IMG/VR virus record: IMGVR_UViG_3300027833_000158
Span: 1 to 31,104 of that record
DNA from: a virus
DNA: 31,104 bases
Reading direction: 5' to 3' (one strand)
The notes below the pieces were generated by a model, which worked only from the letters and a program-made list of their open reading frames with translations, was not told the DNA's origin and did not search any database. Positions within the stretch are counted from its first letter, which is position 1; each line of letters begins with the position of its first letter. This document shows positions 2,641 to 28,005 of the stretch, one piece after another. A program made the position numbers and the translations under genes.

Positions 2641-3453
2641 TTAAAGTTTTTTTACGATAGGATAGAGATAATCTGCGTAGTCTGTGTGTGCTTGTTCGTC
2701 TGGATGACCGTATTTCTTCATGGGTCTGTCTTCCATTATAGTCTTTAGACATGTATCACCTTCAACTAACCCTAGTTTACACTCTGGTCTCAATGAGTCT
2801 AAGGAGTCTTCTGCCCAGTTTGCCCATTGTTTGAGTTGATTACTGGAATTGAACCGTGACATTCTTATTTTTTTAATATATCGGAACACTTCTTGTCGAA
2901 TTTCTTGATGAAATATACCTTGTATAATCTTAATTCCCATACCGTCACACATATGTTGCAATGCAATCATTTGAGGTAATAGGTGAGTGAATCCAGTTAA
3001 CAAACCCGTACCATAGGCACTGATTGCGTTTTCCGTTCTTTCAAATGAGGTTAATTCATTAAAGGTATGATGTCTTGACCATTCATATGCAACATCCTTA
3101 CTCATAGAGAGTTCAAGGTCTTCGAATCGATTCTCGTGCCATTGGGTCATGGATAGTTTAGTATAAACCTTTAATTTGTTTCTATCGTGATTTGGTATTT
3201 CTAATAGTTGTTCTTTTCTTAGAGGGTCAGACCACAAGACAAAGATGTGACTAGGATTTAGATGGAGATTACTCATAATGTCACGAAATATCTTATAGTT
3301 ACAATTACCACATGCAGCTATATTAATATATTCTAAATCTAACTTCTTTGATAATATACTACCAAACACTAAGTCTTGGTGAGTTGGTGGATTGTTTCGA
3401 GAACCGACTAATTCGTCTCCCCAAGCAAAACTACACCCTGCGACTAGTAACAT
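2641..3453 (-). CDS. SGNH/GDSL-like hydrolase (270 aa)
   Basis: The N-terminus LLVAGCSFAWGDEL carries the Ser nucleophile block of SGNH hydrolases (Ser8). AACGNCN (residues 47-52) fits the Gly/Asn oxyanion blocks, and GHPDEQAH near the C-terminus (His250, Asp252, His256) supplies candidate catalytic Asp and His. These enzymes cleave or transfer acyl or acetyl esters on lipids, glycans or thioesters; the substrate here is unknown. The gene overlaps the end of the ANL adenylating-enzyme gene by 23 bp, and AGGA before the ATG supports this start. The pairing suggests work on the same acyl substrate. No signal peptide is seen, so it is probably cytoplasmic. Alternative: a glycan O-acetyl-modifying enzyme. 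Confidence 0.75.
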   Translation of the reverse strand: MLLVAGCSFAWGDELVGSRNNPPTHQDLVFGSILSKKLDLEYINIAACGNCNYKIFRDIMSNLHLNPSHIFVLWSDPLRKEQLLEIPNHDRNKLKVYTKLSMTQWHENRFEDLELSMSKDVAYEWSRHHTFNELTSFERTENAISAYGTGLLTGFTHLLPQMIALQHMCDGMGIKIIQGIFHQEIRQEVFRYIKKIRMSRFNSSNQLKQWANWAEDSLDSLRPECKLGLVEGDTCLKTIMEDRPMKKYGHPDEQAHTDYADYLYPIVKKL

Positions 3454-4666
3454 CTAAGTATCCTCTCAATTGTTCAAAGTCAATTTTAGTATCGTGGGAA
3501 AATGGAGTCAAATCAAATCCTTCTGGTACACCCATCTCTTTTAGGCATATTGGACGGTCACTTTTTAGAATGTATTCTCCGTCAAATAACTCTAACCTAT
3601 CGTCCATATACCTTGGTGCATCCCACATGGGGTGTTCTACCTTCATACGTCCATTCTCAAGGGTTGTCTCGTAAAAGTCATCACATAGTACTCCTAATGA
3701 ATTAGGAATATAAAATGTGTCTTTGTCTACACGGTTTATTAAAAGAGGGATTGCGGTATCAATACTACCGTAATGTGACTGAAAACAAACATTGTATTCT
3801 CTTGCAAGGTCAACAAAATCTGCATCCATTAAGAATCCACACATATTGATATTAACGGTTCTTATGAACGGCCCTGCAAACGTCTCTAAGAAATCAAAGA
3901 GTACGTTCTTATTAGGCATCATTATATTAGATGGGGGATTATCACGTAAATCTTTAAGACCCTTTAGATAATTACTGTCTTCTTCATGTGTCCCATCATG
4001 ACCCAGTGCAAAAGAACTGTGTGAGTATGCATTCATAAGTGCGGGTAGTAGGTGGGTCAATAATGCGGATGCATGGTGTAGGTTTCTCGAATGGATAACC
4101 TTTGCATCGTGTCCAAACCAAAACACATTTATATTTCGTTTAGCAATCGCCATAGTTTCTTTGTGTGAAAACGTTACAGGTCTAGACGCTTTGGTTGTTC
4201 CACTTGTAGAACTTATTAGGAATGTGTCAGTCGGTAGTACATTTTCACCAATTATATCATTCGTGTTATATCCATCATGTATGTCAATTCCTCTTCCACC
4301 ATATAGTTTTATCATCTCATCGTGAAGACCATCATAAACAAGGTGGGTGGGTTCGTTGGAATCAAAGATGTGCCACTTACTTGGGCCATGGAGTGCTAAT
4401 TTAGTAAACGGGAGAGTTTCTCTTGTTGCAGGACTGTTGAGGATAATTAATGGCAGTCCCAATTCTGCACATGCAAATATGGCAGCGACATGACGTATAT
4501 TAACTACCATAATATTGATAGTTACGGGGTCACCTTTTTTTGCACCTATCTCTAACAACAGGTTTTTAATCTTGTTTATTTCTCTACATATGACATCTTT
4601 TCCAACATCATCAAAGATAAATCCTCGACCATGAGAAATTGCATCACGACTTAATATGTTTTGCAT
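3431..4666 (-). CDS. AMP-binding (ANL superfamily) adenylating enzyme lacking the C-terminal lid (411 aa)
   Basis: The phosphate-binding A3 motif is clear (SSTSGTTKAS, followed by VTFSH), the A5-type HYGSIDTAIP follows, and DDRLELFDGEYILKSDR corresponds to the A7/A8 region. ANL enzymes activate a carboxylate with ATP, usually to make acyl-CoA or acyl-ACP or to load a carrier. At 411 aa the protein is about 100 residues short: only about 35 residues remain after the A8 hinge, so the C-terminal domain with the A10 lysine is missing. It may adenylate poorly, act with a partner, or have a changed role. It is embedded between a GIY-YIG-like gene and an SGNH hydrolase, both overlapping. A degenerate paralogue lies at 12230-13231. 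Confidence 0.82.
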   Translation of the reverse strand: MQNILSRDAISHGRGFIFDDVGKDVICREINKIKNLLLEIGAKKGDPVTINIMVVNIRHVAAIFACAELGLPLIILNSPATRETLPFTKLALHGPSKWHIFDSNEPTHLVYDGLHDEMIKLYGGRGIDIHDGYNTNDIIGENVLPTDTFLISSTSGTTKASRPVTFSHKETMAIAKRNINVFWFGHDAKVIHSRNLHHASALLTHLLPALMNAYSHSSFALGHDGTHEEDSNYLKGLKDLRDNPPSNIMMPNKNVLFDFLETFAGPFIRTVNINMCGFLMDADFVDLAREYNVCFQSHYGSIDTAIPLLINRVDKDTFYIPNSLGVLCDDFYETTLENGRMKVEHPMWDAPRYMDDRLELFDGEYILKSDRPICLKEMGVPEGFDLTPFSHDTKIDFEQLRGYLDVTSRRV

Positions 4667-6186: not shown

Positions 6187-8175
6187 TTATCCCTCGCAAG
6201 CACGACATTCATCGTCTTCGTTTGTTTCTACTGGTTTATTTAAGTGTTCCATTAAGTCTTCATACCCACCGACATATTCACCTTCGATGTATATTTGCGG
6301 AACAGTCTTCACTTTTCTTCCTGTTACTTCTGCCGCTGTTTTACCTATTTCTTTGAGGTCAATTTTATCAAATGGTATTCCTCTTAGTTTCAGTTCTTCC
6401 ATTGCCATTGAACAGAAAGGACAATCTGATTTGCTGTAGACTATACTACGCATGTCACCAGACAGTGCAACACGTTCCACTTTCTCAGATACATTTTCTG
6501 CTCTTTGTTTTGACTCAGTTCTTAGGTAGTATAGACCCTTGAGTCCTTCACTCCACGCTTTAAGGTGGACTTTATTTACATAAGACTTTTCACAACCACT
6601 AGGGAAGAACAGATTTACTGACTGACCTTGACAAATATACTCTTGACGTTCTGCCGCATGAGTAACAATCCACTCTTGGTCAAGTTCAGCCGCAGTCCTA
6701 AAGATTGACTTCTCTCCTTCTGTGAGGAATGGAAGATGTTGAACAGACCCTTTTTTAGTTATAATAGATGTCCAGATAGATTTGTTGTTCTCACCCTTCT
6801 CATCTAATAATCTACCAAGATATTTGTTTTTAACTAAGAAAGAACCCGCACGTGTTCTGTGTGTATATGCGTTTGCCTTTAACGGTTCAATGGATGGACT
6901 TGTTGCTAAGATTACACCAGATGATGCATTCGGGGCAATAGCAAGTAAGTGAGAGTTTCTACGTCCAGAATCTTCTCCATCTGGATATGAACCACGTTCT
7001 GTTGCAAGTAATTCTGTTTCTAGTACTGCTTCTGATTTAATGTGTGCGAATACTGTACGGTTAATTTCTCGTGCAGCTTCAGACTCCCATGCAACTCCGT
7101 GTCTTTGTAAGAGGGAATGGAATCCCATTGCTCCAATACCAATACTTCGTTCTCTTTCAGCAGAGTATTTTGCTCGTGTAATTGTATCGGGGGCGTGTTC
7201 AATGAAGTACTGCAAGACATTGTCAAGCATCCTAGTAATATCACGAACAATTGTTGTGTCTTTCCAGTCATCATAATACTCCAAATTTAGAGAAGACAAA
7301 CAACATACCGCAGTCCTATCTTCATTTGTTGGTAAGTGAATTTCGTTACATAGGTTTGACCCATGAATCTTCAGACCCCTGTCTTTCAGAGGTTGAGGTA
7401 AGTCCGCATTTGCGGTATCAATGAAGTTCAAGTATGGTTCACCAGTACGGAAACGAATCTCTATTAGACGTTCCCATAACTTACGTGCATCTATACTTTC
7501 TTTTACTGTACCGTCTTTGGGGTCACGGAGGTCAAACGTATCATTTGACATTACCGCATTCATGAATTCATCGGAGATATTGATTGCATTGTGTAGGTTC
7601 AATGCTTTACGTTGTACGTCACCTGTAGGTATACGCATGTTCATAAACTCTATAATATCGGGATGCGATATATCCATATACGCAGCATAAGAACCTTTAC
7701 GGGTCTTACCCTGTCTATACGCAATCATATCTGCATCAACAGTATGTAAGAATGGAATCGGGCCAGGCGCTATGTCTGATACAGTTCTTACATCTGACCA
7801 ATGACCACCTACACCACCACCGTAGACAGACAACCATCTCAACTCAGATGAGTGACCGATTAATCCTTCAAGGGTATCTGGAACATAGGTTAAGAAACAA
7901 GAGATAGGCATCCCTTTATTTTTCTTAGATTCTCCGTTGGGTGCATTCGATAGCACAGGAGAGGCGAACATAAACCATTTATTACTTACGTAGTCATAGA
8001 GACGTTGGGCGAGTTCATCGTCCATCTCTTCTCTATACTTTGACCAAGCTTCTGCTGCTCGTCTGAATCCTTCTTGAGGACTCTTTTCATAATCACGTAA
8101 GTAAAAATCTTTTAACATTCCCACTGCATATTCTTCTAGTAGGGCATCTTTCTTTTTATCAATTTTGACGGGCAT
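6187..8175 (-). CDS. nrdA: class I ribonucleotide reductase, large (alpha) subunit with embedded glutaredoxin
   Basis: The catalytic barrel carries Cys93 (ISCF), NLCNEI (Asn274, Cys276, Glu278) and a redox cysteine in VCCLSS (Cys291/292); the radical-transfer tyrosines are Tyr549-Tyr550 (GLYYLR). The barrel is followed by a glutaredoxin domain (about 575-648) with CPFC (585-588), TVPQ and GGYED, and then by a C-terminal CRAC pair (657/660), the usual swinging reductant tail of NrdA. The glutaredoxin thus sits between barrel and tail, so one polypeptide may be reduced without a separate redoxin. There is no N-terminal ATP-cone, which suggests loss of dATP overall feedback. It is transcribed from the promoter at 8248. 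Confidence 0.95.
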   Translation of the reverse strand: MPVKIDKKKDALLEEYAVGMLKDFYLRDYEKSPQEGFRRAAEAWSKYREEMDDELAQRLYDYVSNKWFMFASPVLSNAPNGESKKNKGMPISCFLTYVPDTLEGLIGHSSELRWLSVYGGGVGGHWSDVRTVSDIAPGPIPFLHTVDADMIAYRQGKTRKGSYAAYMDISHPDIIEFMNMRIPTGDVQRKALNLHNAINISDEFMNAVMSNDTFDLRDPKDGTVKESIDARKLWERLIEIRFRTGEPYLNFIDTANADLPQPLKDRGLKIHGSNLCNEIHLPTNEDRTAVCCLSSLNLEYYDDWKDTTIVRDITRMLDNVLQYFIEHAPDTITRAKYSAERERSIGIGAMGFHSLLQRHGVAWESEAAREINRTVFAHIKSEAVLETELLATERGSYPDGEDSGRRNSHLLAIAPNASSGVILATSPSIEPLKANAYTHRTRAGSFLVKNKYLGRLLDEKGENNKSIWTSIITKKGSVQHLPFLTEGEKSIFRTAAELDQEWIVTHAAERQEYICQGQSVNLFFPSGCEKSYVNKVHLKAWSEGLKGLYYLRTESKQRAENVSEKVERVALSGDMRSIVYSKSDCPFCSMAMEELKLRGIPFDKIDLKEIGKTAAEVTGRKVKTVPQIYIEGEYVGGYEDLMEHLNKPVETNEDDECRACEG

Positions 8176-9532: not shown

Positions 9533-10933
9533 TTATATGTTTTGTGAGATATCTCTTAAAACAGTTGCACGATAAATGTTGTAAAAGATACCTTCGTACA
9601 CTGCATATAACTGGTCTTTGTGTGGTGTCTCACACTCAAAGTTAAACTTGGACAGTATCTTTCTCTGTATAGGCGAGTCCATAGAGTCACCCAATAGGAA
9701 ACTCTTAGGTGTCTTAAAGACCTCATGATATATCCTTCTATCATTATATAGAGATGCAGTAAGTACATCGTTGTTGGTGCTGATAGAACGAGTGTATAAT
9801 TTTGGTGTCAGAAGTTTTAACATGTTGTACTCTGCATTCTCCCAGTCAATCTCTGGTTTAATCCACTCTTCGAACCATTCGTCTAGATAGGTCTGTGTAG
9901 TCTTATGTGTACCCAGTGTATAGGTTGCACCATAATGATGCGTCTTCTCATCTATATTATTCTGAATCGCAGCTTCTATATGTCGTTCACCCTTGTATTC
10001 TACCATCAACATGTGTAGATGTGGAATCAAATCACGGAAGAACATCTCATCTCCGTTGACTCCGTACATAACAATGTCTGGTTTGACTTCACAATCAGCA
10101 ACCTGTTTCATTGTAGGTAGAATGGATGCCCATCTGGTAGACCCATCTTTTAGATACTGTAGTGTATTTTCGATTGCTTTGTTGGTATCAAAGGTTTCAA
10201 ATGACACATTAGGAAACTTTGCTGCTTGAATTTTTTTATATTCTAACCCATCCTCTCCTGCATGACAAGGTAACATTGTATAACAATATTGTGGGTCACG
10301 GTAGAAGTACTGTGATTGAACTGCGGAGTCGATTCCCTCACTCAGAGAGATAAACCTGTTCTTATAACGAGACCTAATTAGATTGGCGTGTTGGGTCATA
10401 CATTTGTGTATGTAATCTGCAAGTGCATCGGGGTTAGTCCAGAACTCTTCTTTCAATGCCGTCTTACAATCACCTACGTAATCATAGGATGGAATGAATG
10501 AGTTAATATGGTCAAAGAATGTTGTGTTCTCTTCCGCACTGAACTCACGTGACTGTGGGTCTTTCTGACCATACTCCAAGTAGCCACTGGTGATATCATC
10601 TTTACTACATGTCATGAACGGTAGATAGTTACTAATCTCTGTACCGTACTTACGTGCGAGGAATATCTTATGGTTTTGGAAGTAGTCAACCGATATTTCA
10701 AACTTGTCTTTGGTCAGTTTGATTGCAAAGAAGTTTCCGTTCTCCACATCGAAACTCCAACGTTCACATGCATCTTCGATGTCACCTTCAATAAGGTAAC
10801 CAGAATATATAACAATGTAGTCTGACCCTTCCCACACATTTACCAGTTCGTCATGGTAATAAGACCATTGACCATATTGTGTGTAGTTATGTTTCTTGAA
10901 CTTCGTATTGTCCTTACAAATAAAGAATCTCAT
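9533..10933 (-). CDS. asparagine-synthetase-like PP-loop protein without the amidotransferase cysteine (466 aa)
   Basis: The C-terminal half carries the synthetase PP-loop SLSEGIDSAV (Ser198-Ser203) and VNGDEMFF (292-299), matching the ATP-binding SGGxDS and GxGxDE motifs of asparagine synthetases. The N-terminal 110 residues look like a worn class II amidotransferase fold (IYSGYLIEG, FFAIKLTKD, FLARKYG) but begin MRFF, so the essential Cys of the glutaminase site is missing. It may use free ammonia, or form an amide or lactam on another substrate. The gene is coupled (ATGA) to two YkgJ-type cysteine-cluster genes upstream, suggesting a three-gene module. Function inferred; substrate unknown. 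Confidence 0.8.
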   Translation of the reverse strand: MRFFICKDNTKFKKHNYTQYGQWSYYHDELVNVWEGSDYIVIYSGYLIEGDIEDACERWSFDVENGNFFAIKLTKDKFEISVDYFQNHKIFLARKYGTEISNYLPFMTCSKDDITSGYLEYGQKDPQSREFSAEENTTFFDHINSFIPSYDYVGDCKTALKEEFWTNPDALADYIHKCMTQHANLIRSRYKNRFISLSEGIDSAVQSQYFYRDPQYCYTMLPCHAGEDGLEYKKIQAAKFPNVSFETFDTNKAIENTLQYLKDGSTRWASILPTMKQVADCEVKPDIVMYGVNGDEMFFRDLIPHLHMLMVEYKGERHIEAAIQNNIDEKTHHYGATYTLGTHKTTQTYLDEWFEEWIKPEIDWENAEYNMLKLLTPKLYTRSISTNNDVLTASLYNDRRIYHEVFKTPKSFLLGDSMDSPIQRKILSKFNFECETPHKDQLYAVYEGIFYNIYRATVLRDISQNI

Positions 10934-11388
10934 CGTAGTCTTAGTGTTCCCTGTTTGGTATGTAACTCTACTCGTAGTTGTCTACCTTCACTTACAAGTA
11001 TCTCTTCAACTAGGTCATCTAGTTTTTGCTTGTTGTTATTGTATTGAATCTCTGGTGGTAATGTCTTATCCATTGACAAGATACCCACTATACCATCCCA
11101 CTTCTGTATGTGTGCAACAAAACCAAAGTCCTTTGGTCTATATTTATCTTCTAAGTCATGTTCTACATATGAACAAAAGAACTCATCACATATCCTTGGT
11201 TTATCTTCTTGGATAGAACAACCTGTGTCGCATAGTTTATTACAGGTACTCCATGCACCGTAATTTACACCATAGAACTCTGCTTCATCATATCTGTCTG
11301 CACTCTTCCATAGACCAGTATACCCCATGATTTCACAACAGACAGTACAGTCACCACACTTGGATTCTGTAGGAACAATATTAGACAA
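10930..11388 (-). CDS. YkgJ-type Zn/Fe-chelating cysteine-cluster protein, copy 1 (152 aa)
   Basis: Cysteine pattern: CGDCTVCC near residue 11, then CNKLCDTGCSIQ and RICDEFFC. This CxxCxxCC...C...C arrangement is that of the YkgJ/UPF0153 family, thought to bind a metal or an Fe-S cluster. A TTG start at 11388 overlaps the stop of its paralogue by 8 bp, and there is no ATG before the first cysteine cluster. It overlaps the asparagine-synthetase-like gene as ATGA. Sequence and order show a tandem duplication with the gene at 11381. Confidence 0.82.
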   Translation of the reverse strand: MSNIVPTESKCGDCTVCCEIMGYTGLWKSADRYDEAEFYGVNYGAWSTCNKLCDTGCSIQEDKPRICDEFFCSYVEHDLEDKYRPKDFGFVAHIQKWDGIVGILSMDKTLPPEIQYNNNKQKLDDLVEEILVSEGRQLRVELHTKQGTLRLR

Positions 11389-11836
11389 AAAACGTCTCCG
11401 AACCAGATGCGGTTGCTATGTTAATAGCGTATACTGGAACTGCCCATACTTCTTCTGCTGTTGTTTTCATAACATGAATATTTTCATAGTTGTTTGTCCA
11501 AAATTCTTCGGGAGTTACACCAGTCTTACCAGACTCATTGGGGACGATATTTAAAAAATGTCCTTTCTGGTCATATCGTAGATTAGTAACAAACCCTATT
11601 GTATCAGGAAGATACTCTTCAGGTAGGTCAGACTCCACATAAAGACATTCGAAGTCATTACATGACTGTGGTCTTGTACTGTATATTGTACATCTATTGT
11701 TATCACAAAGTTTGTTACATCTGTCCCATTCGTATTGAATGTCTAAGTCAATTAGTTTTATTTGATTGTCATCTATCCACCCAAAGGATTTACAACAGGA
11801 ATGACAGTCACCACATCGGTCAATTTGTTGTTCCAT
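11381..11836 (-). CDS. YkgJ-type Zn/Fe-chelating cysteine-cluster protein, copy 2 (151 aa)
   Basis: Same layout as its neighbour: CGDCHSCC (from residue 8), CNKLCDNNRC, then SCNDFECLYVESDLPEEYLPD, where the neighbour has FFCSYVEHDLEDKYRPKD. The two are clear paralogues but diverged, which suggests two substrates or a heterodimer. Relatives include predicted Fe-S or metal-dependent modifying proteins; no activity is established for phage members. The run continues directly into copy 1 and the PP-loop protein, so all three are probably translated together. Confidence 0.82.
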   Translation of the reverse strand: MEQQIDRCGDCHSCCKSFGWIDDNQIKLIDLDIQYEWDRCNKLCDNNRCTIYSTRPQSCNDFECLYVESDLPEEYLPDTIGFVTNLRYDQKGHFLNIVPNESGKTGVTPEEFWTNNYENIHVMKTTAEEVWAVPVYAINIATASGSETFFV

Positions 11837-12229: not shown

Positions 12230-13231
12230 TTATATCAGAAACTTGACATCCAATTTTGATTCCCACTCTTTATGTTTATCGGTAATCTCATCATGAAGTA
12301 TAATTTCTAAGGTCTTGTTAAAGTTTTGTCCAGATTTTGCCCTATAATCAAGAAACTTCCACAATGTATCGTCTGAGGGTGCCATTATAATGTCAATTCC
12401 AAATACATCAATAACTCTATGTCCAAATACCAAGGTATACTCAAACAATTTTTCTGCACTTATCTTATCGTTTGTAATAAAGAATCCACCATAGTCTTCG
12501 TCAGGAATCTGAAAATCAACGAGTTTACTACTTTGCATCAATGCGGGTAGTATCAATCTTTCTAGTGCGTTATCATGATGTATGTTCTTTGTTAATCCAA
12601 CAACCTTGTTTTCAAAAGATATGTGTTGACTTTCGACCTTATCTAAGATATACTCATGAGTCTTAAACTCTATTGGGGGAACACTTAACCAGTCTCCACC
12701 CGCAAAATAGGATGTTGCATTATCGGTTGATTCTATATGATGTTCTTTGAAATGTACCAAAGGACTTGCGAATTCATAGTCACCCATATAATAGTTTGGT
12801 ATATGCATTTCGTTAATCAACTTCTGAAATGAACTTCCGAAAATATCTCTTTTGGTCGCCCCTATCTTACCACCTAGTATAGGGTCATCTCTATCGTTGA
12901 CCATACCATCAAGTATCCATTCTCCGTCTATTGTACTATAGTCTTCCAACAATGTCAAGAGATGTTCGAAACGTTCTGGGTCAAACTCAGGGCCACAAAA
13001 GAAAGGTTCACTCATTATCTTTATTGTAATACCAAGTTCAAAACATGCGAATATGAACGCAAGGGATTTTACATCGTTGTTGGTACATCCAATAGTTATA
13101 TGCATACCCTGTTTAAAACGTGACAAGAGGTAACTCTTTGCTAAGTCAATTCTTACAAAGAAGTCTTCTCGTTTTATTCTATGTGGGTATAATATAAAGT
13201 CGGAGTGAATTAAATTTCTATTTAACACCAT
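12230..13231 (-). CDS. degenerate ANL adenylating-enzyme paralogue (333 aa)
   Basis: It aligns end to end with the first three quarters of the ANL protein at 3431-4666. Examples are IFACFELGI with IFACAELGL, NIHHDNALERLILPALM with NLHHASALLTHLLPALM, and PIEFKTHE with PVTFSHKE. The A3 ATP-phosphate loop (SSTSGTTKAS in the other copy) is replaced by SYFAGGDWLS, and the protein stops before the A5 site, so it should not adenylate anything. A pseudoenzyme partner, substrate-binding subunit or decaying duplicate are the options. It overlaps the desaturase gene by 14 bp. The intact reading frame, with no stops, argues that it is still under selection. Confidence 0.75.
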   Translation of the reverse strand: MVLNRNLIHSDFILYPHRIKREDFFVRIDLAKSYLLSRFKQGMHITIGCTNNDVKSLAFIFACFELGITIKIMSEPFFCGPEFDPERFEHLLTLLEDYSTIDGEWILDGMVNDRDDPILGGKIGATKRDIFGSSFQKLINEMHIPNYYMGDYEFASPLVHFKEHHIESTDNATSYFAGGDWLSVPPIEFKTHEYILDKVESQHISFENKVVGLTKNIHHDNALERLILPALMQSSKLVDFQIPDEDYGGFFITNDKISAEKLFEYTLVFGHRVIDVFGIDIIMAPSDDTLWKFLDYRAKSGQNFNKTLEIILHDEITDKHKEWESKLDVKFLI

Positions 13232-13958
13232 TGTGTTTGAACCACTTGATTAATAATAAATAAGGTAAATCGACTTTACCAAGTCTCGCATTCATGGGTT
13301 TGTCATGATGTTTAAGATGATAAATTTCAGGGGAATAAATGAGTCCAAGGAAATGTCCTTTCCACCCATTCTGGGGAATCCATCTGATATGACCAACATA
13401 CAACAAGAACACTTGGTGTACAATCATGGTAACATATACAAATGCCCATTCAACAAATCCAAACATTGCACTAAAGAGACCAATAGTAATTGCTGCCCAT
13501 AACCAAAAGTATTTTAGTTGTGCAACATACAGGGGGTCTCTCAGTATGTCTCTGACATACATAAAGTTTGGTTTAGTAAGATAGATATTCAGATTGTGTT
13601 GAAGAGAATACTGAGGCCCGTGTGGGTCACCTTCTTCTTCTGAATGATAATGGTGTTGCCTATGGGTTGCAACCCAAGGGATGACTGCACCTAATCCAAG
13701 ACCAGTAGAGATAAACGTTAAAGGATATCTCAACCAGTTTGGACATTTCCATGTAGGATGTGCGATTGCACGATGATAGAATGCAGAACTGAGTACTAAC
13801 ATTATGACAGTTCCTACAGGATACCACCATAACAATGACCAGTTCTGATTGATTGCTAAATCATATCCAACCACCGCAACACATAAGTAGAACAGACCTA
13901 TAATTCCGTATCCACTGTTTCCTACGATGTATTCGTTCGCTTTTTTTAGCAGATTCAT
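13218..13958 (-). CDS. fatty-acid desaturase, histidine-box type (246 aa)
   Basis: The three di-iron histidine boxes of membrane desaturases are present: HRAIAH (62-67), HRQHH (99-103) and HLKHH (214-218). Four hydrophobic segments surround them (about 17-33, 42-60, 77-95 and 152-190, the last long enough to cross twice). The length and box spacing fit the acyl-CoA / acyl-lipid delta-9-type group, though it is at the short end. It would introduce double bonds into fatty acyl chains, with electrons from a host ferredoxin or cytochrome b5. It overlaps the degenerate ANL gene, tying the two together. Confidence 0.9.
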   Translation of the reverse strand: MNLLKKANEYIVGNSGYGIIGLFYLCVAVVGYDLAINQNWSLLWWYPVGTVIMLVLSSAFYHRAIAHPTWKCPNWLRYPLTFISTGLGLGAVIPWVATHRQHHYHSEEEGDPHGPQYSLQHNLNIYLTKPNFMYVRDILRDPLYVAQLKYFWLWAAITIGLFSAMFGFVEWAFVYVTMIVHQVFLLYVGHIRWIPQNGWKGHFLGLIYSPEIYHLKHHDKPMNARLGKVDLPYLLLIKWFKHNGVK

Positions 13959-26838: not shown

Positions 26839-28005
26839 CTATAGAAAACAATGACTTACAGAATATTTGGAATTATTTTCAATTTCATCGATGAAATCTT
26901 GGGGTATTTCACGGTCAATGATGATAATTCCGATACATCCTGTAGGTGACCTGTCTCTAAACTGACGGGATAGTCTATGTTTCCCTGCAATGATGTCTAA
27001 TCCACAGGGGATATTGACCCCATACTTCTCATGTAAATGAAAGGGATATGGGACATCTTGAGATTCTGGTTGTACAATCACCTTCTGAACTTCACCATAT
27101 GAGTCCCCGATTATCTCAGGTTTCCCATGCATTGATTCCAACCATTCGTCCCCAGTAATGAAGTAGGGCATACTGTTTGACTGTTCTGGTCTGACGTTTA
27201 TCTCACAGAAGTACCACTCGTCATCCTTGATAAGACCAGTAATCTGACCAATATAGTCACCACCCAGTGTCACCACCCAGTCCAGAATAGTCTTCGCATT
27301 CTCTAGTGTCATGTCACGATGTTTGTCAGACAGTTTGTCGTATCCCGCAAAACGAGTCCAGTGAGTAAACCCACCCGCCATCTTTGCAGTGTCTTCACCC
27401 ATCACTTGTTGATGATGGTAGATAGACCACTTACCACCAGAGACTACAAACTCGACATTAGTCTCAATGTTATCCGAGATGTATTCCTCAATATAGTAAT
27501 CTGGTTGATTGTTGATAACCCACTGACGATGCTTTTCGGTAAGAACAATTGATGCACTGTCGCCAGCTACACCACTTGTCTCTATTGGTTTAACAACACA
27601 AGGTATTTGAAGTTCGGATAGTAACTTTGGAAGTTTAACTCCGAGTTTTTCGATGTGTCCTCTAGTCCAGTGTTTGCGACATTCTAACCATGCAGACTCT
27701 TCACTGAGTCCAATATAGTCTAGTTCCCGTCTCCATTTTGGTGGGACAGGGTACATAGGCCAAGAATTGATAATAGTATCGATACCATTATCTTCTACAA
27801 ATTTACGTGCAACACTTTCACGTTCGGTAACATCGGGGTTATCTAGTAAAGTGATACCCAGTGATTTGTAATATTCTTTTGGGACTCTATGGGGGTGCTT
27901 AGGCATACCGTTGGTCACAAAGACTTTGTGTCCAGACTCAGCTAGTATTCTAAGATTGTGGAAATTGCATAGACCGTAATCTATGCATAGAATCCTACGT
28001 TTCAT
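26839..28005 (-). CDS. ATP-grasp ligase of unknown substrate (388 aa)
   Basis: The N-terminus RILCIDYGLCNFHNLRIL is a Rossmann-like start. The ATP-grasp core shows CVVKPIETSGVAGDSASIVL (136-155; ATP-binding Lys139), YIEEYI (171-176) and YFCEINVRPEQ (265-275; Mg-binding Glu268 and Asn270). The family joins a carboxylate to an amine or thiol using ATP; members make purine intermediates, cyanophycin, amino-acid amides and similar. PurD- or carbamoyl-phosphate-synthase-like order, but the substrate pocket is not assignable. It starts at TAATG over the preceding small gene. A peptide-tagging or nucleotide-precursor role are equal options. Confidence 0.85.
   Translation of the reverse strand: MKRRILCIDYGLCNFHNLRILAESGHKVFVTNGMPKHPHRVPKEYYKSLGITLLDNPDVTERESVARKFVEDNGIDTIINSWPMYPVPPKWRRELDYIGLSEESAWLECRKHWTRGHIEKLGVKLPKLLSELQIPCVVKPIETSGVAGDSASIVLTEKHRQWVINNQPDYYIEEYISDNIETNVEFVVSGGKWSIYHHQQVMGEDTAKMAGGFTHWTRFAGYDKLSDKHRDMTLENAKTILDWVVTLGGDYIGQITGLIKDDEWYFCEINVRPEQSNSMPYFITGDEWLESMHGKPEIIGDSYGEVQKVIVQPESQDVPYPFHLHEKYGVNIPCGLDIIAGKHRLSRQFRDRSPTGCIGIIIIDREIPQDFIDEIENNSKYSVSHCFL

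Follow-up and report, generated by a model that had tools for sequence, protein, structure and literature searches.

In marine T4-like phages, an adenylate-forming-type protein (ANL) is accompanied by a short paralogue (pANL) that has lost its catalytic motifs, evolves under purifying selection and is exchanged between genomes. We put at about one half the probability that these phages have an adenylating system of two genes, in which pANL serves as the non-catalytic subunit, open to exchange, and would contact ANL. The window, that is the whole stretch of DNA analysed, comprises 31,104 nucleotides of the IMG/VR virus record IMGVR_UViG_3300027833_000158 and belongs to a marine T4-like phage. 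The closest annotated relative of its NrdA, at 76% identity, comes from phage C48C1 (Kyanoviridae, OQ984149). In contrast to this likeness, a tblastn search of 50,697 phage records gave no match to ANL or pANL; plasmids likewise gave no match and cellular genome contigs no relative of either protein, which speaks against a cellular origin. The following features of the window are discussed here:

2641-3453, minus strand: SGNH-like/DUF6071-type gene, overlapping the 3′ end of the ANL gene by 23 nt and present in many, not all, lineages
3431-4666, minus strand: ANL (P0002), adenylate-forming-type protein of 411 aa (Pfam AMP-binding, E 2e-7)
12230-13231, minus strand: pANL (P0001), short ANL paralogue of 333 aa without P-loop, assigned by its open reading frame, hhalign, motif loss and dN/dS
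13218-13231, minus strand: 14-nt overlap between pANL and desaturase genes, where the pANL start codons hold the upstream stop TAG
13218-13958, minus strand: DesA/acyl-CoA-desaturase-like membrane desaturase (NCBIfam DesA family, E 2.2e-6)

The window also encodes a ribonucleotide reductase large subunit with a C-terminal glutaredoxin domain (6187-8175, minus strand; Pfam Glutaredoxin E 9.3e-13, residues 579-635), as well as two adjacent, related CxxCxxCC-type proteins (10930-11836, minus strand; PHROG 9155, E 5e-9 and 3e-6), beside which lies a protein of 466 aa that matches no family and contains SEGIDS, a degenerate motif resembling a PP-loop.

The ANL superfamily (PF00501) comprises acyl-CoA ligases, NRPS adenylation domains and luciferase, and both phage proteins align to its N-terminal domain. 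By BLASTP, the window's pANL and ANL share a single 37-residue segment (38% identity, E 1e-5), and pANL alone has no match to Pfam AMP-binding, yet 13 of the 18 pANL family members match PF00501 directly (best E 3.5e-6). Profile alignment with hhalign gave P = 5.5e-12 for 3 pANL versus 7 ANL sequences and E 2.9e-27 across 280 columns for 18 versus 22, while the best of 30 column-shuffled control profiles reached E 0.05, so that chance similarity is ruled out. The result holds when the window's own pANL type is removed (E 2.2e-26) and when it is used alone (7.9e-15). On these comparisons the kinship is confirmed as remote yet clear, in agreement with the first-pass annotation, which had called the relatedness clear and had named a missing alignment as what would speak against it.

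The motifs that the same annotation had quoted (FACxELGx, HHxxALxxxLLPALM and a loop reading FAGGDWLS) are all present in the sequence, pANL containing both FACFELG and HHDNALERLILPALM. At the position of the ANL P-loop, SSTSGTTKASRP, it reads TSYFAGGDWLS, so that the A3 consensus (S/T)SG(S/T)TGxPK is replaced by FAGGDWLS, and an intact A3 loop is found in none of the pANL types. The match between pANL and ANL ends at the strand preceding A5, hence the earlier statement that the A5 region is gone is accurate; the protein stops before A5 (YGxTE) and A7 (the TGD-like Asp), and the C-terminal domain with the A8 hinge and A10 Lys is absent. No pANL type has A5, A7 or the C-terminal region, in contrast to the superfamily at large, and the best conserved part is the A4 HH region. 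Judged by these alignments, the window's pANL corresponds to an ANL N-terminal domain from its start to about residue 295, with the ATP-binding loop lost and the chain truncated before A5. Some types retain traces of the loop (L054 has GTSGQL and L152 SGSGFG), a hint that a functional ANL was the ancestor.

The ANL copy looks active, with the P-loop SSTSGTTKASRP, an A4 HH, A5 (YGSIDT) and A7 (YMDD); the TSGTT-like loop is invariant in 22 homologues, and the Asp residues of A5/A7 are invariant or nearly so. It differs from the usual superfamily member in its A5, where the non-canonical YGSIDT replaces YGxTE, and in its length, since at 411 aa it ends near the expected hinge and has no usual C-terminal domain with the A10 Lys, because of which ANL may depend on assistance to be fully active. 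NCBIfam acyl-CoA ligases match 22/22 ANL family members, albeit weakly, and among solved chains the ANL profile comes nearest to gramicidin/tyrocidine adenylation domains and to acetyl-CoA synthetases. Another possible carboxylate-activating enzyme of the same phage is an ATP-grasp-like protein (26839-28005, minus strand; Pfam ATP-grasp_3 E 0.0014, PylC E 0.0021).

The pANL reading frame runs from an ATG through 333 codons with zero internal stops, and, as had been noted before, it is still open and overlaps the desaturase gene, by 14 nt. Its relatives in L004 and L007, at 75% and 73% identity, have open frames too, and dN/dS (NG86) between them and the window's copy is 0.15-0.22, near the value for ANL (0.18-0.22), whereas constraint is stronger on the adjoining desaturase (0.05-0.09). 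The frame is intact in all complete pANL copies seen; pANL is under purifying selection and is not decaying. The relaxed selection with stop codons that the first-pass annotation had named as refuting is thus not observed in related phages, and its view that the protein looks like a pseudoenzyme is supported by the missing P-loop, A5, A7 and C-terminal region together with this selection.

When IMG/VR was scanned with both families, 57 ANL-bearing contigs were found, 40 of which carry a short P-loop-less pANL (305-372 aa), and all 40 pANL-bearing contigs carry ANL; many of these contigs are near-duplicates, so that the well-separated pANL types number about eight. Being based on a motif of pANL itself, the pANL scan is independent of ANL, and the pANL profile alone recovered 36 of the 40. 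Among the 17 ANL contigs lacking pANL, 11 end before its expected place and 6 fall in one clade, in which a second ANL copy, of 472 aa, is encoded 5-6 kb away on the 3 longer contigs. This copy has a decayed loop, HTSGYSGDDYKF, but keeps A5- and A8-like segments; in L146 (16335-17753, minus strand), where these read IFGETDG and IIGRQ and no Pfam match is obtained, it is a possible intermediate toward pANL. As the DUF6071/SGNH-like gene beside ANL is missing from several lineages, pANL is the more constant companion of ANL. The pairing with the active copy that had been proposed earlier hence has strong support from the genetic linkage (40/40 contigs, usually within one operon), from which we infer a physical pairing. 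The other role that it had suggested, presenting an acyl substrate, is putative, as is the acyl nature of the substrate. A role in anti-phage defence was considered and dropped, there being no PADLOC match.

The position of pANL within this linkage varies. It usually lies in the ANL operon, either after the DUF6071 gene, directly after ANL with a 14-nt overlap, or directly before ANL, while the window's lineage has it behind the desaturase, at 8.5 kb from ANL. DUF6071 is assigned through the L068 homologue of the gene at 2641-3453 (Pfam, E 4.4e-7), and the SGNH label is based on a GCSF-type N-terminus, with no family match behind it. The desaturase has three histidine boxes (HRAIAH, HRQHH and HLKHH) and resembles acyl-CoA desaturase 4ymk (E 0.012), but it partners only pANLs of the window's type, in the sub-lineage of the window, L004 and L007. 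The nearest other relative, the 372-aa pANL of L152, sits on the same tree branch as the window's pANL (support 98/97) and directly overlaps ANL, and the L152 record contains no desaturase; the desaturase site is therefore probably secondary. The description of pANL as kept next to a desaturase is consequently correct locally and fails as a defining feature, and a desaturase-specific role is weakened, other pANL types having no adjoining desaturase. For the same phage pairs, dS of the desaturase is 0.24-0.43 versus 0.55-0.82 for the overlapping pANL, so that the desaturase is far more conserved even synonymously, as if the recent histories of the two genes differed. An upstream overlap of exactly 14 nt is found at 12 of 21 pANL starts, with the desaturase, the DUF6071/SGNH-like gene or ANL upstream, the upstream stop being contained in the codons for a conserved N-terminal (L/I)xR of pANL; such a shared junction would ease cassette exchange. 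In L022 (5937-7448) and L054 (3988-5448), pANL carries a fused Methyltransf_24-like domain as its C-terminal part (182 aa, E 6.6e-5), and a PhyH-type oxygenase comes next (E 1.2e-10). In L024 and L046, deletions of about 1.1 kb, with breakpoints that differ between the two, have removed the methyltransferase and oxygenase and left pANL in place.

Partners have been exchanged between phages, as near-identical ANLs go with very different pANLs: P17727 (phage of L004/L016) and L025 share 91% identity in ANL and 27% in pANL, P22907 (phage of L007/L058) and L055 share 91% and 28%, and L046 and L048 share 93% and 30%. The reverse case is seen for L045 and L048, with 72% identity in ANL and 96% in pANL. 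The conflict between the two trees is confirmed by AU tests, in which a common ANL/pANL grouping was rejected in 6 of 7 comparisons (p 0.002 to 1e-50).

In the reading we prefer, ANL would activate a carboxylate with ATP, and pANL would complete or activate ANL, or set which acid or acceptor it uses; the tailoring genes would be optional, namely the DUF6071/SGNH-like gene, the desaturase with the window's pANL type, and the methyltransferase and PhyH-type oxygenase with another type. A non-catalytic partner fits best because pANL, with its dead active site, is under purifying selection and constantly linked to a paralogue that looks active, and this linkage persists although the position of pANL changes between lineages. 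Since pANL types vary and swap along with different tailoring genes, a role in ANL specificity is suggested. A more specific version, in which dead ANL subunits replace one another and so re-target a single conserved ANL, being cassette-swapped with matching tailoring enzymes (desaturase, or methyltransferase and oxygenase), is offered tentatively, and we would not expect it to hold in full. Several points weigh against a subunit. That pANL reassorts freely with distant ANL alleles could point to the lack of a tight binary interface, 8.5 kb separate the two genes in the window's lineage, and the phages are all related and broadly syntenic, so that co-occurrence partly reflects shared ancestry. 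Moreover, the activity of ANL itself is putative, given its missing C-terminal domain. AlphaFold2 models of the window's two proteins, built on shallow alignments, have a pLDDT of about 39 and are too poor to inform on the fold or on an interface.

Such tolerance of partner swapping would also be expected if pANL were an independent binding protein of the same pathway, with the substrate pocket of ANL (A4 region) retained. Rather than forming a complex with ANL, it would then bind the acid or the acyl product and make it available to tailoring enzymes, for instance the desaturase or the fused methyltransferase. The conservation of the A4 HH region above all others is consistent with this, as are the methyltransferase fusions and the desaturase overlap in the window. 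However, most pANL types have no tailoring gene and stand alongside ANL and the DUF6071 gene only, and L024 and L046 kept pANL after losing the methyltransferase and oxygenase, hence we regard an independent binder as unlikely, if worth serious attention. It is quite improbable that pANL is alive with changed chemistry, its altered loop binding another nucleotide or the protein performing a different acyl or adenylyl transfer. The loop replacement is constant within a type (GGDWLSVPP in all pANLs of the window's type, KFWxxxENPF in the L025/L069 types), and purifying selection is strong, but the loops are unlike between types, with no common new motif, and the segments from A5 onward are absent throughout. 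The loss of every ATP-site motif and an evolution faster than that of ANL could also be those of a decaying duplicate without function; dN/dS and the open frames rule out a pseudogene, and the retention of pANL through rearrangements and adjacent deletions further argues against decay, so that hardly any weight is left for it.

Dead paralogue partners as such are already known. In Trypanosoma, AdoMetDC is activated by heterodimerisation with its dead paralogue, prozyme (PMC5201418), and the likeness to the phage pair lies in an active enzyme being kept with a catalytically dead paralogue. Fold and chemistry are unrelated to those of ANL and pANL, however, and pANL is truncated, varies far more than the enzyme does and has been exchanged from genome to genome, its pairing with ANL being putative. 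A literature search, outside which most subscription papers fell, returned no phage ANL pair or ANL-superfamily pseudoenzyme partner, and no dead paralogue that is exchanged between viral genomes while the enzyme stays; the phage ANL case is thus one for which we found no report. If pANL sets the specificity of ANL, these phages would provide a natural swap experiment, in which a truncated ANL domain redirects an adenylating enzyme, and one would expect marine T4-like phages to make an acyl-type modification that is as yet undescribed.
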